DNA of 37,212 nucleotides, from positions 1 through 37,212 of IMG/VR virus record IMGVR_UViG_3300001533_001615; one strand, given 5' to 3'. Made by a program: the position numbers and the translations under genes. The DNA is from a virus. The notes under the pieces are model-generated. The model did no database searches, was not told the DNA's origin, and worked only from the letters and a program-made list of their open reading frames with translations. Positions 1 through 5,968 of the stretch are shown in pieces (the first letter of the stretch is position 1; the number at the start of each line of letters is the position of its first letter).

Positions 1-341
1 TGGGAAACAATCCCATTACTATAAAATATATTTCCATTTTCAACATCAAGAACATCATACATATTTGATTTTCCTGATTTTTTTTCAATTTTATCTATTT
101 TTTCTATTCCATCAATAGTTTGTATATAATCATCAATTTTAAGATCTTTACAAAATTTTTCTTCCCAATTATCAGTTATTAATATATGTTCATCAGCACA
201 TATTAGAGATTTTCCATTTTCAGTTATGATTTCCCATTCTTCATATTCTATGGTTTTTCCTACTCCAGAAAATGATTGCCATCCAGAAGGAGTTTCAATT
301 TCCCATTCATCAGTTTCTATTTGTTCAATGAATTTATCCAT
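1..341 (-). CDS. gp17: Large terminase, C-terminal split-gene part (C-intein; C-extein lies beyond the window)
   Basis: This opens with ATG at 341 and reads through 113 codons to the window edge, so it is partial. Translation gives a free-standing intein C-fragment. A block-B-like segment ends in ADEH (residues 49-52). The C-terminal blocks F and G read MYDVLDVENGNIFYSNG then IVS, and the edge cuts the next codon at CA-, which fits the usual penultimate His of ...VSHN. No terminase sequence is visible here; the motor and nuclease domains should follow outside the window. The ATG overlaps the end of the endonuclease gene by 8 nt, suggesting translational coupling. With the N-half at 1325-1696 this would splice in trans to restore TerL, the ATPase and nuclease that packages DNA. 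The fragment begins before block B, so the split point is near the intein N-terminus, as in the atypical AceL-TerL split intein. Confidence 0.88.
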   Translation of the reverse strand, partial: MDKFIEQIETDEWEIETPSGWQSFSGVGKTIEYEEWEIITENGKSLICADEHILITDNWEEKFCKDLKIDDYIQTIDGIEKIDKIEKKSGKSNMYDVLDVENGNIFYSNGIVS

Positions 342-1365
342 TTAAGAACTCCAAACATTTTTCAACAGCATCATTTTTGTCATTTCTATAATCTTCTTCT
401 TTAATATGAAGAACACTATATCCATTTCTAATTATAATTTCATCTCTCTGATGATCTCTCAATCTATTTGTATTTTTAATTATGTGTTTTCCGTGCCAAT
501 AAGTGCCATCAAATTCTATAATTTTTTTACTATCAATATTTATGAAGTCTGGAAAAATAAATCTATTATCAAGATTTAATCTGTATTCATTGTTTAATCC
601 ACTAGTATCTAGATTTTTATCTTCATTAAGTTCAGCAAAAAATATAAACTTTTTTACATCTATATCAATTCTTTCAAATAATTTCCAAAAGAGTTCTTGT
701 GATATTTTAGAGTATCCATTCTTTTTACTTTTCTTATAACTATTATGCCATTTTTCTTGCCTATCTTTCCACCTCAATATCCCATTTTCTTTTCCATATT
801 TTTCTATACATTTTTCTAATGTAAAAGTTGTTTGCCTTTCTTTTATTTTTTCTTTAGATTCTTTTTCTGTAAACCCCCCATTAATCCAATATATTAATGT
901 AGTATCATTATTCCCATTATTTTTATTGGAGTTTGATATTTTATCAATTATCGATTTTTTGTCTACACTATCGGCATATATAAAATTTTTTGATAGTGAT
1001 GAATATTTTCCATTATGATTATATGCAGGATTTTTTTCTCCAGCAATATTTTTTGATTGATTGGTTAAATACTTTTCACTTCTAATTTCGCCATATTCTT
1101 CTTTATATTTCTTTGGTGAAATTTTATGAGTTCTTAGTATGTGTGAAGTTAAGTCGTGAGAAAATAATCCACAAAGTTTACAAGAAATTGCACCTTCAGA
1201 TTTTAGATCGGATTCCGTCTTTATTAGATTGTGTTTAATTTTATATTCATCATAAGAAGAATATCCGTGACTAATTTTTACGTGCCTTGACATATGAGAT
1301 CCGCCTTTTATGACTTCACCACAATCAAGGCACGTCAGTATCACTTTTTTTCTTGAGTTTTTCAT
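334..1365 (-). CDS. Free-standing homing endonuclease, EDxHD/Vsr-like, with two zinc fingers
   Basis: A protein of 343 aa from ATG 1365, preceded by GGTGA; an in-frame GTG at 1374 and TTG at 1377 are less likely starts. Two Ros/MucR-like fingers lie at the N-terminus: C12, C15, H28, H33, and C62, C65, H75, H80. A middle segment has GEKNPAYNHNGK and a YGKENGILRWKDRQEKW stretch of the kind seen in phage homing endonucleases. The C-terminal nuclease core has D273 (FPDF), E284/D286 (IEFDGTYWHG), H291 and D308 (RDEIIIRNGY), fitting the Vsr-related EDxHD fold of I-Bth0305I-type enzymes. It probably cuts intein-less terL alleles and so spreads the split intein. The gene sits between the two halves of terL, overlapping the first by 41 nt and the second by 8 nt. 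Family assignment rests on motifs only. Confidence 0.85.
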   Translation of the reverse strand: MKNSRKKVILTCLDCGEVIKGGSHMSRHVKISHGYSSYDEYKIKHNLIKTESDLKSEGAISCKLCGLFSHDLTSHILRTHKISPKKYKEEYGEIRSEKYLTNQSKNIAGEKNPAYNHNGKYSSLSKNFIYADSVDKKSIIDKISNSNKNNGNNDTTLIYWINGGFTEKESKEKIKERQTTFTLEKCIEKYGKENGILRWKDRQEKWHNSYKKSKKNGYSKISQELFWKLFERIDIDVKKFIFFAELNEDKNLDTSGLNNEYRLNLDNRFIFPDFINIDSKKIIEFDGTYWHGKHIIKNTNRLRDHQRDEIIIRNGYSVLHIKEEDYRNDKNDAVEKCLEFLNG

Positions 1366-1696
1366 AAAATTCACCAATACTTAGTTCTAATATTTTACCA
1401 GTTTTTTTATTTTTTATTCTTATTTTTGTATTTATATTAAAACATTTTCCAGTTTGACGTGGCATCTTACAGATATTAAATCTGTGCTCATGAAATCGAT
1501 TAATGAGTTTTTCCTGAAACTCATAGGGGTGAAATTGTGTTAAACCTTTATCTAGTGATACGATTTTAATATAATTATTTGCAAAATAAACTGGGTCATT
1601 CTGACACTTAATGAACTCCTCAATTTGTTCTTGAGTGAATTCAATCGGAGTATTTGCTTTTTTCAGTAAAGGATTACCTAAATATACATCACTCAT
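1325..1696 (-). CDS. gp17: Large terminase, N-terminal split-gene part (N-extein plus N-intein)
   Basis: A protein of 123 aa. Residues 1-84 are the start of T4-like TerL (DPVYFANNYIKIVSLDKGL, FHPYEFQEKLI) and end in KMPRQTGK, the Walker A motif of the packaging ATPase. Residue 85 is Cys (codon 1442-1444) and begins an intein N-fragment of 39 residues (CFNINTKIRIK, then ILELSIGEFYEKL), followed by a stop at 1325. The intein therefore sits directly after the Walker A Lys, where the +1 residue would be Ser or Thr; an unspliced product cannot bind ATP properly. A normal TerL of this family is about 550-610 aa, so this is only a short N-terminal piece. An AGTAGG element lies about 8 nt before the ATG. 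The end of the reading frame overlaps the zinc-finger codons of the endonuclease gene. Confidence 0.9.
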   Translation of the reverse strand: MSDVYLGNPLLKKANTPIEFTQEQIEEFIKCQNDPVYFANNYIKIVSLDKGLTQFHPYEFQEKLINRFHEHRFNICKMPRQTGKCFNINTKIRIKNKKTGKILELSIGEFYEKLKKKSDTDVP

Positions 1697-1870: not shown

Positions 1871-4480
1871 TTAGCATTTCCATCTTCTTCTTGCTTTGCA
1901 AATTGGTTTATCTGGAGTTTTAGAGCAATCAATATTGTGCATATCCCTTTGTCCAGCAGATCTGCTACAAAATGCACCTTGACGTTTTTTTCGAGCACCT
2001 TTTGGATTTTTTTCAGTTACTGCAGTCTGTAGTTTAGAACCCGGATTCTCACGACGATATGCATCAACTGCTTTTTGACTCAATCCATCTGTCTTATCTT
2101 TACGATTGACTTTTTGCCAATCTTCAGTTTGTAAAAACTGCTCACCTGGTTTAATATCTGAAATATTATATGCTAAAACTCTTGCTCCAGGATATACTTT
2201 ATCAATTTGATCCTGAACATCTCTTCTGGTTGGAGTAGAAACCTGTGGAAAGAACATCTTTATTGCATAATACTTTCCTCTCCAATTGAGAGTTACAAGA
2301 ATAATATTTCCAGTTTTTGATGGAATTCTTATAGTTTCATTGACTTCATTATATCCCATAAGTTGATCACAAATACAAGGATTTTGTCCACATCGTTCAC
2401 AAACAATTGGATCTGCTTTGATTACATCATCAACTACCGCAAATGTTTCTCCATATGCATCTTGAATTTCAATTTCTTCACTTATTGATTTCCATTTTCC
2501 ACCCGCCTTTTTATATTCTTTCGCAGCCCAACCATTAGCATAAGCAGAATTACCAGTAATTGTTATAAGTCCATTTTGTACCATTACCCAAGTATTATTT
2601 TCAGTTGTTGGGCACCAAACATCCTCTACACCATCATCCTCAATTATTAAATTTTGTGTAGAGTGATATTTTTTATTTCTTATGATAGTTGCTCCAGTAA
2701 TACAATCAGTTTTTTCATAAAAAGATACATAATATCCATTTAAATATGCTGAAAGTAGAGTTGCCCAAAAATGATCATCATTTTTTTGAGTAAATCCGAA
2801 AGTATGTCTATCTCTTATTTTTGTAGAACCCCCTTTATCGTAACCATCATATACGATTGATGAAGCTAAGTACACTTCTCTCTGCTCTTTATTCCAAGAT
2901 AAAACTTTTTCAACCCAATTATCTTTTTTTGACCACTTTTCTTCAAATAAATTAAAACTCTTATTTTCTTCTAAAGATGCACAAGTAACTACTCGCATTC
3001 TTTTATGAATATCTTTTGTTTCAACTAAAGAAATATTTTGATATTCATTACCAGATCTAACAACCCATTTATGATTTTCAGTTGCTCTTAGTGAAAAACC
3101 AGTTTTTTTGTAAATTCTTTTTAATGGAGCTTGTTCATAAAAATGAAGATGTGAAATTGGTTTCCACTCTAAAATATCCTTATTAATATTATAAGTTAAA
3201 ATATTTTCTCCAATTTTTAATTCATCGTAAGTTTTTAATCCATCTTTAGTAATTGCTTGAGAATCTAAAGGAACACAAGGATAAACATCAAATTTTGCTT
3301 TTGCTCTAGACTTCATTTTAGACCAGAGTGATGGATTTGTTGGAACATTCTTCTCATTAAGAACTTCCGATTCCATCTCAAGGATAATTTTATCCACAAG
3401 AGAAATTTCTTCCTTTTTCAATGATGGTAAAGAAACTCCTGCTTTACGAGCAGCTGCTGATCTTTCACCTTTAGTAGAACCTTGTTGTGCAAGAACACTA
3501 ATTTTTTTCTTCTTTTCTGCCCTCCTTACATCTGCAGGTGTATGCTTAATTTCAAAAGATGTTTCATTCACTGGAACACAATTTGGAACCATTTTATTTC
3601 CTTTCTTTTTCATCCCCTCTTGCTTGTATCCCTTCCAACAAGGATCTTTCTTTGCTTCATCCATAGATCCGTGAACATTATGCTCACCACTATCAATATA
3701 ATCAGCTGCTGAATCAATATAATCTGCTGCTTTTGTGATTTTAGATTGAACCCAAGCTTCTACATTTCCCTCTCCCTTCATTTTTGACTTGAGGCGATCT
3801 ACTGCTTTTCTAATAGTCTCAAGTTCGGAACGAATCATTGAATGTTCGTGATCTGGTTGTTTTCTTTCTTCCTCTATATCAGAACTCAAATCAAATTTAT
3901 CTACAGTCACTTTATCCCAAACTTTTGGACCATAAGAACATTCACTTCTTTTTTCCTTCTTTTCACATAATGGACAATATCTAACTTCTTCAACTTGCTC
4001 TCCACGAAGTTGTCGATAATGGTACTTTTTTTCACTAGAAGGAGCATTTCTTAACCAAGGATCATCATAAATTTTATTATCAACATCATTTCTAATTTGT
4101 TTACTTATTCTTTTTTGTTGATTTTGTGCTCTAATTTGATCCTGAGTCATTCCATCATAAGTCACATTGGTTTCAGATTTTTTACTTTTATTTTTTCTTA
4201 TTTTGTCTAAAAGTCCTTCGTCAATTTTATTGGACACCATTTTAGGTTTTCCTCCCTTTCCTTTGCGATCTGCTACTGGGTCTTTTTTTCTTTTTCTTTT
4301 TACAGCAGAAGCAATTTCACTTTTAGACATTTTTGCTGCTTTCTCATTTGATAGACACTTAGGTTTTGGTTCACCAGGTTCACGAGCACAAGGTCCAATC
4401 GCCTTACCTTTAGTATTATATCTCTTCCAATTTCCTTCTGGATGAGATTTTGAAAACCAATTTCTAAGATCTTCGTTCAT
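1871..4480 (-). CDS. Conserved cyanophage structural-type protein with an internal intein
   Basis: A protein of 869 aa. The N-terminus (GNWKRYNTKGKAIGPCARE) and the basic stretch MSKSEIASAVKRKRKKDP resemble modules in cyanophage proteins of the DUF5872 type. A zinc-binding-like segment RYCPLCEKKEKRSEC lies at 167-181, and a tandem heptad-like repeat AADYIDS occurs twice at 251-264. The C-terminus is rich in basic residues (AYRRENPGSKLQTAVTEK ... RRRWKC). Residues 402-644 are an intein (separate entry); removing it joins ...KFDVYP to SAYANGWAAKEYKKAGG and leaves a 626-aa host protein. A CxxC pair of motifs (CERCGQNPCIC) follows at 694-704. It sits between gp16 and gp17. Many cysteines and basic residues suggest nucleic-acid or metal binding, but the true role is unknown. 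A late-promoter box lies 16 nt upstream of its ATG. Confidence 0.82.
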   Translation of the reverse strand: MNEDLRNWFSKSHPEGNWKRYNTKGKAIGPCAREPGEPKPKCLSNEKAAKMSKSEIASAVKRKRKKDPVADRKGKGGKPKMVSNKIDEGLLDKIRKNKSKKSETNVTYDGMTQDQIRAQNQQKRISKQIRNDVDNKIYDDPWLRNAPSSEKKYHYRQLRGEQVEEVRYCPLCEKKEKRSECSYGPKVWDKVTVDKFDLSSDIEEERKQPDHEHSMIRSELETIRKAVDRLKSKMKGEGNVEAWVQSKITKAADYIDSAADYIDSGEHNVHGSMDEAKKDPCWKGYKQEGMKKKGNKMVPNCVPVNETSFEIKHTPADVRRAEKKKKISVLAQQGSTKGERSAAARKAGVSLPSLKKEEISLVDKIILEMESEVLNEKNVPTNPSLWSKMKSRAKAKFDVYPCVPLDSQAITKDGLKTYDELKIGENILTYNINKDILEWKPISHLHFYEQAPLKRIYKKTGFSLRATENHKWVVRSGNEYQNISLVETKDIHKRMRVVTCASLEENKSFNLFEEKWSKKDNWVEKVLSWNKEQREVYLASSIVYDGYDKGGSTKIRDRHTFGFTQKNDDHFWATLLSAYLNGYYVSFYEKTDCITGATIIRNKKYHSTQNLIIEDDGVEDVWCPTTENNTWVMVQNGLITITGNSAYANGWAAKEYKKAGGKWKSISEEIEIQDAYGETFAVVDDVIKADPIVCERCGQNPCICDQLMGYNEVNETIRIPSKTGNIILVTLNWRGKYYAIKMFFPQVSTPTRRDVQDQIDKVYPGARVLAYNISDIKPGEQFLQTEDWQKVNRKDKTDGLSQKAVDAYRRENPGSKLQTAVTEKNPKGARKKRQGAFCSRSAGQRDMHNIDCSKTPDKPICKARRRWKC
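2549..3277 (-). other. Contiguous intein (243 aa) with degenerate LAGLIDADG motif
   Basis: The intein runs from Cys402 (TGT, 3275-3277) to Asn644 (AAT, 2549-2551), with Ser645 as the +1 nucleophile. Block A is CVPLDSQAITKDGLKTYDEL, block B is SLRATENHKWVV (T-x-x-H form), block F is VEDVWCPTTENNTWVMVQNG, and block G is LITITGN followed by S. The penultimate residue is Gly, not the usual His. Between the splicing blocks, LASSIVYDG (538-546) aligns with LAGLIDADG at five of nine positions, and LLSAYLNGYYVSF (575-587) may be a second relic. At 243 residues it is too short for a full two-motif endonuclease, so homing is probably lost. Exteins on both sides join naturally in the conserved YP|SAYANG motif. 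Confidence 0.9.
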
Positions 4481-4495
4481 TTTAATAGTTTTCTT

Positions 4496-4503
4496 TATTT
4501 ATT
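4496..4503 (-). promoter_or_regulatory. Late promoter box AATAAATA
   Basis: AATAAATA on the minus strand, 16 nt before the ATG of the intein-bearing gene and overlapping the stop codon of gp16. It matches the NATAAATA motif of cyanophage late promoters. Confidence 0.45.
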
Positions 4504-4957
4504 AAACATCATCATTATCGTTATTTAAATTTTGTTTTAAAAGTTTTGATAGTTCTGCTGTTGATCCAACAAAAAGTGCATTTGTAACATTTGTTGGTCC
4601 TTTTTTATTACCAATATTATCAATATCTTTTAATTTTTTCTGAAGATCCATCAATTTTTCAGTTGCATCAGAAACACTTTTAATCAACTGACCAGCAACT
4701 TCGTATGCTCTTGGAGCTTCAGTTTCTTGAGCTAATTCTATAATTCCATTAATTGCTTCTTGACCCTTTTCAATAATTGAATATAAGTTTCCTCTTGTGT
4801 ATTCATAATCTTTTTTTACATCACTAACTATATCTTCACTACTACTAGGTTCATTTAACGAATTTTTATCTGAGCTTGGTAAAACCTCTACATCAACACT
4901 ATCTTCTTCAATATTAAAGGCTTTATTTAAACCATTATACTTTTTTGAATTTCCCAT
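4502..4957 (-). CDS. gp16: Small terminase subunit gp16
   Basis: A protein of 151 aa (T4 gp16 is 164 aa). The central segment DYEYTRGNLYSIIEKGQEAI followed by APRAYEVAGQLIKSVSDATE and LMDLQKKLKDI is the hallmark of T4-type small terminases and should form the coiled-coil oligomerisation region. The C-terminal GPTNVTNALFVGSTAELSKL is also conserved. The first 45 residues are acidic and Ser-rich and look disordered. TerS recognises concatemeric phage DNA and regulates TerL. It starts 3 nt after gp15 and is followed by the intein-bearing gene rather than directly by terL. Confidence 0.93.
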   Translation of the reverse strand: MGNSKKYNGLNKAFNIEEDSVDVEVLPSSDKNSLNEPSSSEDIVSDVKKDYEYTRGNLYSIIEKGQEAINGIIELAQETEAPRAYEVAGQLIKSVSDATEKLMDLQKKLKDIDNIGNKKGPTNVTNALFVGSTAELSKLLKQNLNNDNDDV

Positions 4958-4960
4958 AAC

Positions 4961-5968
4961 TTAAATAAAAGAATCACTAAATCCGAAATCATCACCGGGT
5001 TCTATAAGTAAATTATCTTGTGCTGTTATTGACTTTACTTCAGAACCTGATACGTGAAGTGAAATTGGTGTATTATATTGACCTCTTTCAACAGTTAATT
5101 TGTTACTTACTTTTGACTTAACATATAAAGTTTCATTATTAATGGTAATATATGATTTACTAGAAATACCAGAAGCACTATTTACCTCAATAGTAGTATC
5201 TGAAACTTCAACATCATTGCTTATATTTGTTAATACAGTTCCGGTATAATTTTTAGTTGCTTGTGGTTCTACAGTATAGGTAAGTTCTCTTGTTGGGGAT
5301 TTATTAGACTCTCCAGACACAAAACCAATAGAAACTTTTTTAATAATATCTGAAGTTGCATTATCAGTAGAAACAGGACCAAATAGATAAGTTTTTGCAG
5401 TAAATCTTAAAGTATATATTAATGCTCTTCTTGTTGAAAAATCACCTTCATAATCATCTTGCATAGTTATATTATTCAATATAATTGGAATATCTCTTTT
5501 TTCTCCAATAGATTCTATTAAATCAACAGTTAAATTATATGATGGTTGAAAATATGGTAATATTTGCTCAATGACTTGAAGCATATCATCATTTTGCTTC
5601 GTCATTATTGATAATTCAAAATCAATATCATATGGTACAGGCATATATGCCTTTCTAATATCAGATTTATCTGATATATTATGTGAAAGAAAAGTTTGTG
5701 TTACAGTTGTTTTTCTTCTTGAATCATAATTTATACCAGAAATCTCAAAAGACATTCTGGGCAAATTCATTTGAAATGGTTTGTTTAAATCTGGAGACTG
5801 CTCTAATCTTGCTAAAAACTTTTGAGTTGGACCATAAGCTAGTGGAACTTCAATAACAGATACAACATTTCCAGAATCATCTGTTTTTCTGATTTGTATC
5901 TTATTGAATAGAGTACCAAAAGCAATTACAGTTTTTCTTATAATTTCGTGATAAAAATACTCAAACAT
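4961..5968 (-). CDS. gp15: Tail completion / sheath stabiliser gp15, with an extra C-terminal module
   Basis: A protein of 335 aa (T4 gp15 is 272 aa). The N-terminus FEYFYHEIIRKTVIAFGTLF, then VPLAYGPTQKFLARLEQSPD and MPRMSFEISG-like text (here LPRMSFEISGINYD), is typical of T4-like gp15, which caps the tail tube and sheath and joins the tail to the neck. Residues about 248-313 are an added beta-rich module (DTTIEVNSASGI, INNETLYVKSK, VERGQYNT, LHVSGSEV) that also occurs in the giant baseplate proteins here. The conserved end GDDFGFSDSF follows. The ATG has a good ribosome site, GGGAG, 8 nt upstream, and a late-promoter box 22 nt upstream. Confidence 0.93.
   Translation of the reverse strand: MFEYFYHEIIRKTVIAFGTLFNKIQIRKTDDSGNVVSVIEVPLAYGPTQKFLARLEQSPDLNKPFQMNLPRMSFEISGINYDSRRKTTVTQTFLSHNISDKSDIRKAYMPVPYDIDFELSIMTKQNDDMLQVIEQILPYFQPSYNLTVDLIESIGEKRDIPIILNNITMQDDYEGDFSTRRALIYTLRFTAKTYLFGPVSTDNATSDIIKKVSIGFVSGESNKSPTRELTYTVEPQATKNYTGTVLTNISNDVEVSDTTIEVNSASGISSKSYITINNETLYVKSKVSNKLTVERGQYNTPISLHVSGSEVKSITAQDNLLIEPGDDFGFSDSFI

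Follow-up and report, generated by a model that had tools for sequence, protein, structure and literature searches.

A Cys1-bearing intein with a complete Trp-Cys-Thr triad interrupts the conserved PSAYA motif of a T4-like cyanophage protein

Does the 243-residue segment that interrupts an 869-aa open reading frame of a marine T4-like phage represent a genuine intein and, if so, by which chemistry would it splice? The ORF lies on the minus strand at positions 1871-4480 of the window (the whole analysed stretch of 37,212 nucleotides from IMG/VR record IMGVR_UViG_3300001533_001615), between gp16 and gp17; its neighbours are the terminase small subunit gene (4502-4957, phrog_445) and gp17 (1325-1696, phrog_5989). 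The segment, CVPLDSQAIT...ITITGN, comprises ORF residues 402-644 (2549-3277, minus strand) and ends in GLITITGN, followed by Ser. Using an intein-free homologue from Synechococcus phage S-BM3 (gene annotated T4-GC_119), we delimited a 401-aa N-extein ending in ...AKAKFDVYP (3278-4480, minus strand) and a C-extein of 225 aa plus stop codon that begins with SAYANGWAAKEY (1871-2548, minus strand). In S-BM3 the motif is uninterrupted (KFDVYPSAYANGWAAKEY / NVPTNPALWSKMKSRAKAKFDVYPSAYANGWAAKEYKKAGGGWK), and since it reads NVPTNPALWSKMKSRAKAKFDVYPSAYANGWAAKEYKKAGGGWK without the intein, the YP|SAYANG junction (the bar marks the insertion point) is exact. Over 165 nt, the joined flanks of the window and S-BM3 DNA are 78% identical and align gap-free, and a further 49 intein-free copies of the motif are uninterrupted at precisely this junction.

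The segment contains intein blocks A, B, F and G, a nucleophile at position 1, His at B:10, a C-terminal Asn and a Ser at +1. An AlphaFold2 model built with 17 family members is a confident HINT fold (pLDDT 89.3). The first-pass annotation had proposed a 243-residue intein with these four blocks at YP|SAYANG, and the empty site, the fold and the motifs bear this out; its P|S junction agrees with the read-through in S-BM3, and its 626-aa spliced product follows from 869-243 = 626. We conclude that window positions 2549-3277 (minus strand) encode a genuine intein, confirmed at the level of sequence, which would excise itself and ligate its exteins.

The intein is easily overlooked by standard models: it scores 15.2 bits with TIGR01445 (cut-off 24.5) and 17.9 with Pfam Intein_splicing (cut-off 35.8), and PHROGs holds no model for it. 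As the family falls below these cut-offs and is missing from PHROGs, its members will often be called hypothetical, and the family is probably under-annotated. A PDB sequence search with the single intein sequence returned no intein among its matches, and a profile search returned NrdJ-1 (E 0.005), with weaker matches to AceL NrdHF, Hedgehog and BIL domains. We did not find the YP|SAYANG insertion site in published papers.

The inserted element splits a DUF5872 module into an N-terminal part (EKNVPTNPSLWSKMKSRAKAKFDVYP; 3278-3355, minus strand) and a C-terminal part (SAYANGWAAKEYKKAGGKWKS; 2486-2548, minus strand) that match PF19197 only when joined: with the intein removed, the 54-residue module scores 31.5 bits against a gathering cut-off of 27.5. 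In a Pfam search with the intein-containing 869-aa ORF, DUF5872 went unmatched and the sole match was DUF6321 at the C-terminus of the C-extein (1880-2101, minus strand; PF19846, E 4.6e-9). AlphaFold predicts the intein-free module as beta-alpha-alpha-beta (pLDDT 80.6), with helix 2 starting at PSAYA. Matches in a fold search with this model did not improve on E 5.6 or exceed Z 2.0, so we assign no function to the module; annotations of the domain extend to an algal virus (PMC12085832). PSAYA is the most conserved part of the domain and, as the earlier claim of a conserved insertion motif implied, is invariant in 30 intein-free copies, an invariance that partly reflects row selection because the copies were gathered with PSAYA as the handle. 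Since the intein interrupts this motif, the DUF5872 module is probably non-functional until splicing. To call the host a 'non-enzymatic structural protein', as had been done, was an over-statement: both DUF5872 and DUF6321 are of unknown function, and the annotation 'virion protein' is attached to one homologue.

The extein (within 1871-4480, minus strand) is assembled from small shuffled modules whose order differs among cyanophage homologues: an N-terminal RYNTKGK...PKMVSN type, a Cys-rich YCPLCEKKEKRSECSYG, DHEHSMIRSEL...YIDSAADYID, DPCWKGYKQEGMKKKG, DUF5872, CERCGQNPCICD, TLNWRGKYYAIKMFFP... and DUF6321. The DUF5872 motif is absent from some homologues (S-CREM2, Sf-CH8).

All catalytic positions were read on the minus strand. 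Cys1 (3275-3277) is the presumed first nucleophile. Block B, TENHKW (within ATENHKWVV; 3065-3082), supplies Thr66 (B:7), His69 (B:10) and Trp71 (B:12), the last being the first residue of a Trp-Cys-Thr (WCT) triad. Block F, VWCPTTENNTWVMVQ (2576-2620; VWCPTTENNTWVM), contributes the second, Cys222 (F:4, 2612-2614), and has Asn rather than His at F:13. Block G, LITITGN (2549-2569), provides the third, Thr241 (G:5), followed by the penultimate Gly242 and by Asn243; the acceptor nucleophile is Ser+1 (2546-2548). Cys1, Thr66, His69, Trp71, Cys222, Thr241, Gly242 and Asn243 are invariant in a 27-row alignment that reaches down to 24% identity to the window. Cys1, Trp B:12, Cys F:4, Thr G:5 and the Gly-Asn end are likewise present in all 44 complete distinct inteins from viral contigs (Ser+1 in 43 of the 44); the search patterns favoured Trp B:12 in many of these loci, but Trp is also present in the PolA, portal and tail relatives, whose retrieval used no pattern. 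Trp B:12 was read in none of 33 other inteins found by TIGR01445, in a check made by regular expression and biased to high-scoring models.

The residues that usually assist are absent, since G:6 is Gly and F:13 is Asn where both are normally His. Variation at these two assisting positions is on record (PMC4031507, PMC5050341), and a phage RDF intein with a penultimate Gly splices, its Gly-to-His substitution slowing the reaction (PMC5050341). The penultimate Gly noted in the first-pass annotation is thus real; as a defect it does not stand, being invariant in the family and known in phage inteins (PMC5050341).

Residues 117-203 (2669-2929, minus strand) form half of a LAGLIDADG endonuclease: they align with the second-motif half of two-motif relatives (loci L070, L157, L158, L156, L152 and L154), and the first half is missing. 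The single remaining motif, LASSIVYDG (2843-2869), keeps Asp144 (2846-2848) at the LAGLIDADG metal-binding position; this Asp is nearly invariant in the family alignment, as is Gln164-Lys165 (2783-2788) in FGFTQKN, a conserved LAGLIDADG-type strand motif. The motif had been described as degenerate. It does depart from the consensus, but its final Asp-Gly is kept, and is conserved in the family wherever the region is present; the motif belongs to the surviving half of a two-motif endonuclease. Among site-a inteins (those at the window's own site), median dN/dS is 0.28 in the N-terminal splicing part, 0.30 in the endonuclease half and 0.22 in the C-terminal splicing part, values that indicate purifying selection on all three, the half domain included. 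It is perhaps retained as a homodimer or as a scaffold, and any endonuclease activity is putative. Mini inteins of 168-201 aa that lack the half domain (L067, L031, L069) imply that it is not needed for intein persistence. The L070 intein keeps a complete two-motif endonuclease.

Two scans of viral contigs recovered related inteins in 61 contigs or loci, most of them at three insertion registers within five residues of the DUF5872 PSAYA motif: site a, P|SAYA(N)G, as in the window (27 loci); site b, PSAYA|SGAL, four residues downstream in a sister motif type, WPSAYASGALVKC (28 loci); and site c, PSAY|SNG, in one locus on a 296-kb contig (L065). The ORF is kept open in all relatives. In the intein tree, site b forms one clade (99/97), site a holds together only weakly (67/47), and DNA polymerase I inteins fall between or outside them; the idea that site a and site b inteins are unrelated was rejected, both being of the same family. 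Adjacent registers have a precedent in the mycobacteriophage inteins TerL1-a and TerL1-b, which lie one residue apart in the terminase P-loop (PMC5050341). The likeness is one of neighbouring insertions in a single conserved motif; there the site is a known ATPase site, whereas the motif in the window is of unknown function and carries three registers within five residues.

Two of the scanned loci instead have the intein in phage DNA polymerase I: L069 (4001-4585, site CTH|SNPNMAQVPS) and L070 (4001-4993, site KT|CNYASVYNAG). Moreover, tblastn found full-length relatives in the DNA polymerase I of 34 phage records, in one of which the gene is annotated as an intein precursor. The intein of Justusliebigvirus and Phapecoctavirus PolA (Escherichia phage PaulScherrer bas60_0044, phi92) is a full-length homologue of 245 aa at about 32% identity that shares Cys1, Trp B:12, Cys F:4, Thr G:5, the Gly-Asn end and the single-motif endonuclease half; it differs in its PolA host, in Cys+1 and in a motif nearer the consensus (LEGFLIADG). 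One profile scan of cellular genomes gave five distant matches and no close relatives, and the close family therefore looks phage-borne.

Intein and flank relatedness disagree. The closest intein (L010) is 94% identical to that of the window with flanks at 79/86%, while L012 has an 85% identical intein and flanks at 96/91%, the same flank values as intein-free S-BM3; the flank comparison covers about 50 residues of a recombining module. The fetched loci, a biased sample, comprise 50 intein-free and 53 occupied motif copies. This discordance fits horizontal movement, and hence an intein that spreads as a mobile element.

To which splicing class does such an intein belong? Trp B:12, Cys F:4 and Thr G:5 define class 3, with Ser+1 also listed as a class 3 feature (PMC5222942), whereas a Cys, Ser or Thr nucleophile at position 1 is missing from class 3 inteins; a 1701-member class 3 set was collected on the absence of Cys1 (PMC7891396). 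Conversely, Cys F:4 is known, polyphyletically, in class 1 inteins (PMC3196547, PMC4031507). The window intein has the whole WCT triad together with an invariant Cys1; in class 1 inteins a Cys, Ser or Thr at this position initiates splicing. In a tree of the splicing blocks (48 rows, 140 columns), the family groups with Cys1 inteins of a Gordonia phage portal, Pinkcreek gp135, a Pseudonocardia portal-like gene and NrdD (100/99). The class 3 DnaB, TerL, dCD and PhoH rows (gene names other than DnaB were read from flanking sequence) form a separate clade (98/85), and forcing the family to group with class 3 was rejected (p-AU 0.026). Given the invariance of Cys1 and the tree, we do not file the family under class 3, and membership as a plain class 3 intein was rejected.

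The same-clade inteins of actinophage portal and tail-region proteins (Gordonia phage Hail2Pitt gp8, Mycobacterium phage Pinkcreek gp135) and of cellular NrdD share with the window Cys1, a VWCPTT block F, Gly G:6 and, except for a Ser at one NrdD neighbour position, Thr G:5. They differ in their hosts and sites and, in most cases, in having a complete two-motif LAGLIDADG domain, and the NrdD inteins have Val, Ile or Leu at B:12, unlike the Trp of the window. The Pinkcreek gp135 locus (L158, 2533-4911) and a Gordonia phage portal locus (L157, 2086-4875) encode inteins that combine Cys1 with the WCT triad and contain two-motif endonucleases; both sit among structural genes and are unannotated as inteins in their records. 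The earlier suggestion that the host is an unusual protein type for a phage intein needs tempering, as portal-protein inteins are already known (PMC5050341) and L158 holds one in the tail region. Class 3 inteins (mycobacterial DnaB-1, AceL NrdHF) share Trp B:12, Cys F:4, Thr G:5 and Ser+1 with the window and include the nearest solved fold, but lack Cys1, end in PTHN in the DnaB type and occupy a separate clade. The family's mixture of residues falls between the published classes: it is ordinary in kind and unusual in detail.

Our preferred reading, to which we give a probability of roughly 0.7, is that a mobile intein lies in a T4-GC_119-like protein of modular build from a T4-like cyanophage and splices in cis by a class-1-type route from Cys1, with Cys222 assisting or relaying. 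That Cys1 never varies favours a class-1-type first step, and that Cys222 never varies argues that this residue also matters. His69 and Thr66 would activate the N-terminal scissile bond, Cys1 would form the thioester, and the acyl group would then move to Ser+1; Asn243 would cyclise unaided by a His at the penultimate or F:13 position, which hold Gly and Asn in this intein, and YP would finally be joined to SAYANG by an acyl shift. Cys222, in a class-3 arrangement with Trp71 and Thr241, would assist and may be an alternative acyl carrier, and the second-half LAGLIDADG domain, which is under selection, may act as a homodimer. What the analysis shows is the sequence, the empty site, the predicted fold, conservation, phylogeny and selection; splicing, the order of its steps and endonuclease activity are inferred from these. 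We count against this reading that both usual Asn-cyclisation histidines are absent, that the first half of the endonuclease has been lost and that some relatives lack the whole domain.

Because class 3 is defined by the full WCT triad, splicing might proceed without any need for Cys1: Cys222 would attack the N-terminal junction directly, the branched thioester at block F would pass to Ser+1, and Cys1 would be a relic. We consider this unlikely, though a serious competitor. Both the full triad and Ser+1 are class 3 features (PMC5222942), and the best match of the intein model in VIA is the class 3 AceL NrdHF intein (Z 18.3, 2.0 Å, 143 residues aligned), likewise without F:13 and G:6 histidines (PMC7891396). 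The model also matches SspDnaB (Z 17.3), NpuDnaB (Z 17.2) and NrdJ-1 (Z 17.0), reaches Z 14-18 with many inteins and matches the HEN-bearing TliVMA over 231 residues. Inteins combining Ser1 with WCT reportedly splice without Ser1, a finding ascribed to Tori and Perler in 2011, and this too counts for the class 3 route. Against it, a relic would not be expected to persist unchanged in all complete members across so deep a divergence, the family lies outside the class 3 clade, and the nearest relatives without Trp B:12 (NrdD) still keep both Cys1 and Cys F:4. Moreover, VIA Z differences of about 1 are ties and the class 1 and class 3 scores are near ties, so the predicted fold does not decide the class.

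More doubtful still is a class 1/class 3 hybrid with two successive N-junction nucleophiles (Cys1 to Cys222 to Ser+1), which would preserve a kind of intermediate from which class 3 inteins could have lost their first residue. That splicing has been lost, with the phage living on despite an interrupted DUF5872 module, is very improbable: the missing penultimate and F:13 His, the half endonuclease, the modular extein family and the S-CREM2 and Sf-CH8 homologues without the DUF5872 motif would suit an inactive intein, but all catalytic positions are invariant, dN/dS is 0.2-0.3 in both splicing segments, the frame is open in all relatives and a penultimate-Gly phage intein splices (PMC5050341). 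An ordinary domain retained in the mature protein, which the sub-threshold scores with curated intein models could suggest, is scarcely credible given the exact junctions, HINT fold, full set of block motifs, Cys1 and Asn-Ser junctions, empty sites and annotation of the same element in DNA polymerase I as an intein.

The neighbouring gp17 is itself interrupted at its P-loop within window 1-1696 (minus strand): its N-part reads PRQTGK|CFNINTKIRI... (1325-1696), a separate ORF at 334-1377 encodes a ROS/MUCR zinc finger and a DUF559/Vsr-like nuclease, and a C-intein-like ORF at 3-341, with first residues MDKFIEQIETDEWEIETPSGWQSF, runs off the window. In layout this is like a split intein whose halves flank an endonuclease gene, for which the term 'fractured gene' was reportedly used by Dassa in 2009. 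A dependence of the DUF5872 intein on the gp17 element was rejected, as L011 and L055 have such inteins near an uninterrupted gp17 P-loop. In phage S-SRM01 (L003), the genes for the neck protein and the tail-sheath stabiliser are separated by an HNH-domain ORF (1871-2398), and next after the DUF5872 protein comes an ORF for endonuclease VII (5531-5941). The stretch from gp13 to gp17 has the look of a nuclease hot spot.

The first-pass annotation had overlooked that Cys1 coexists with the WCT triad, that there are two further insertion registers, and the origin of the endonuclease half. By analogy with the terminase P-loop, the three related insertions, packed into five residues of DUF5872, mark PSAYA as a functional hot spot. 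Finally, a natural family with Cys1 and the whole triad makes the transition between intein classes directly testable by two point mutants.
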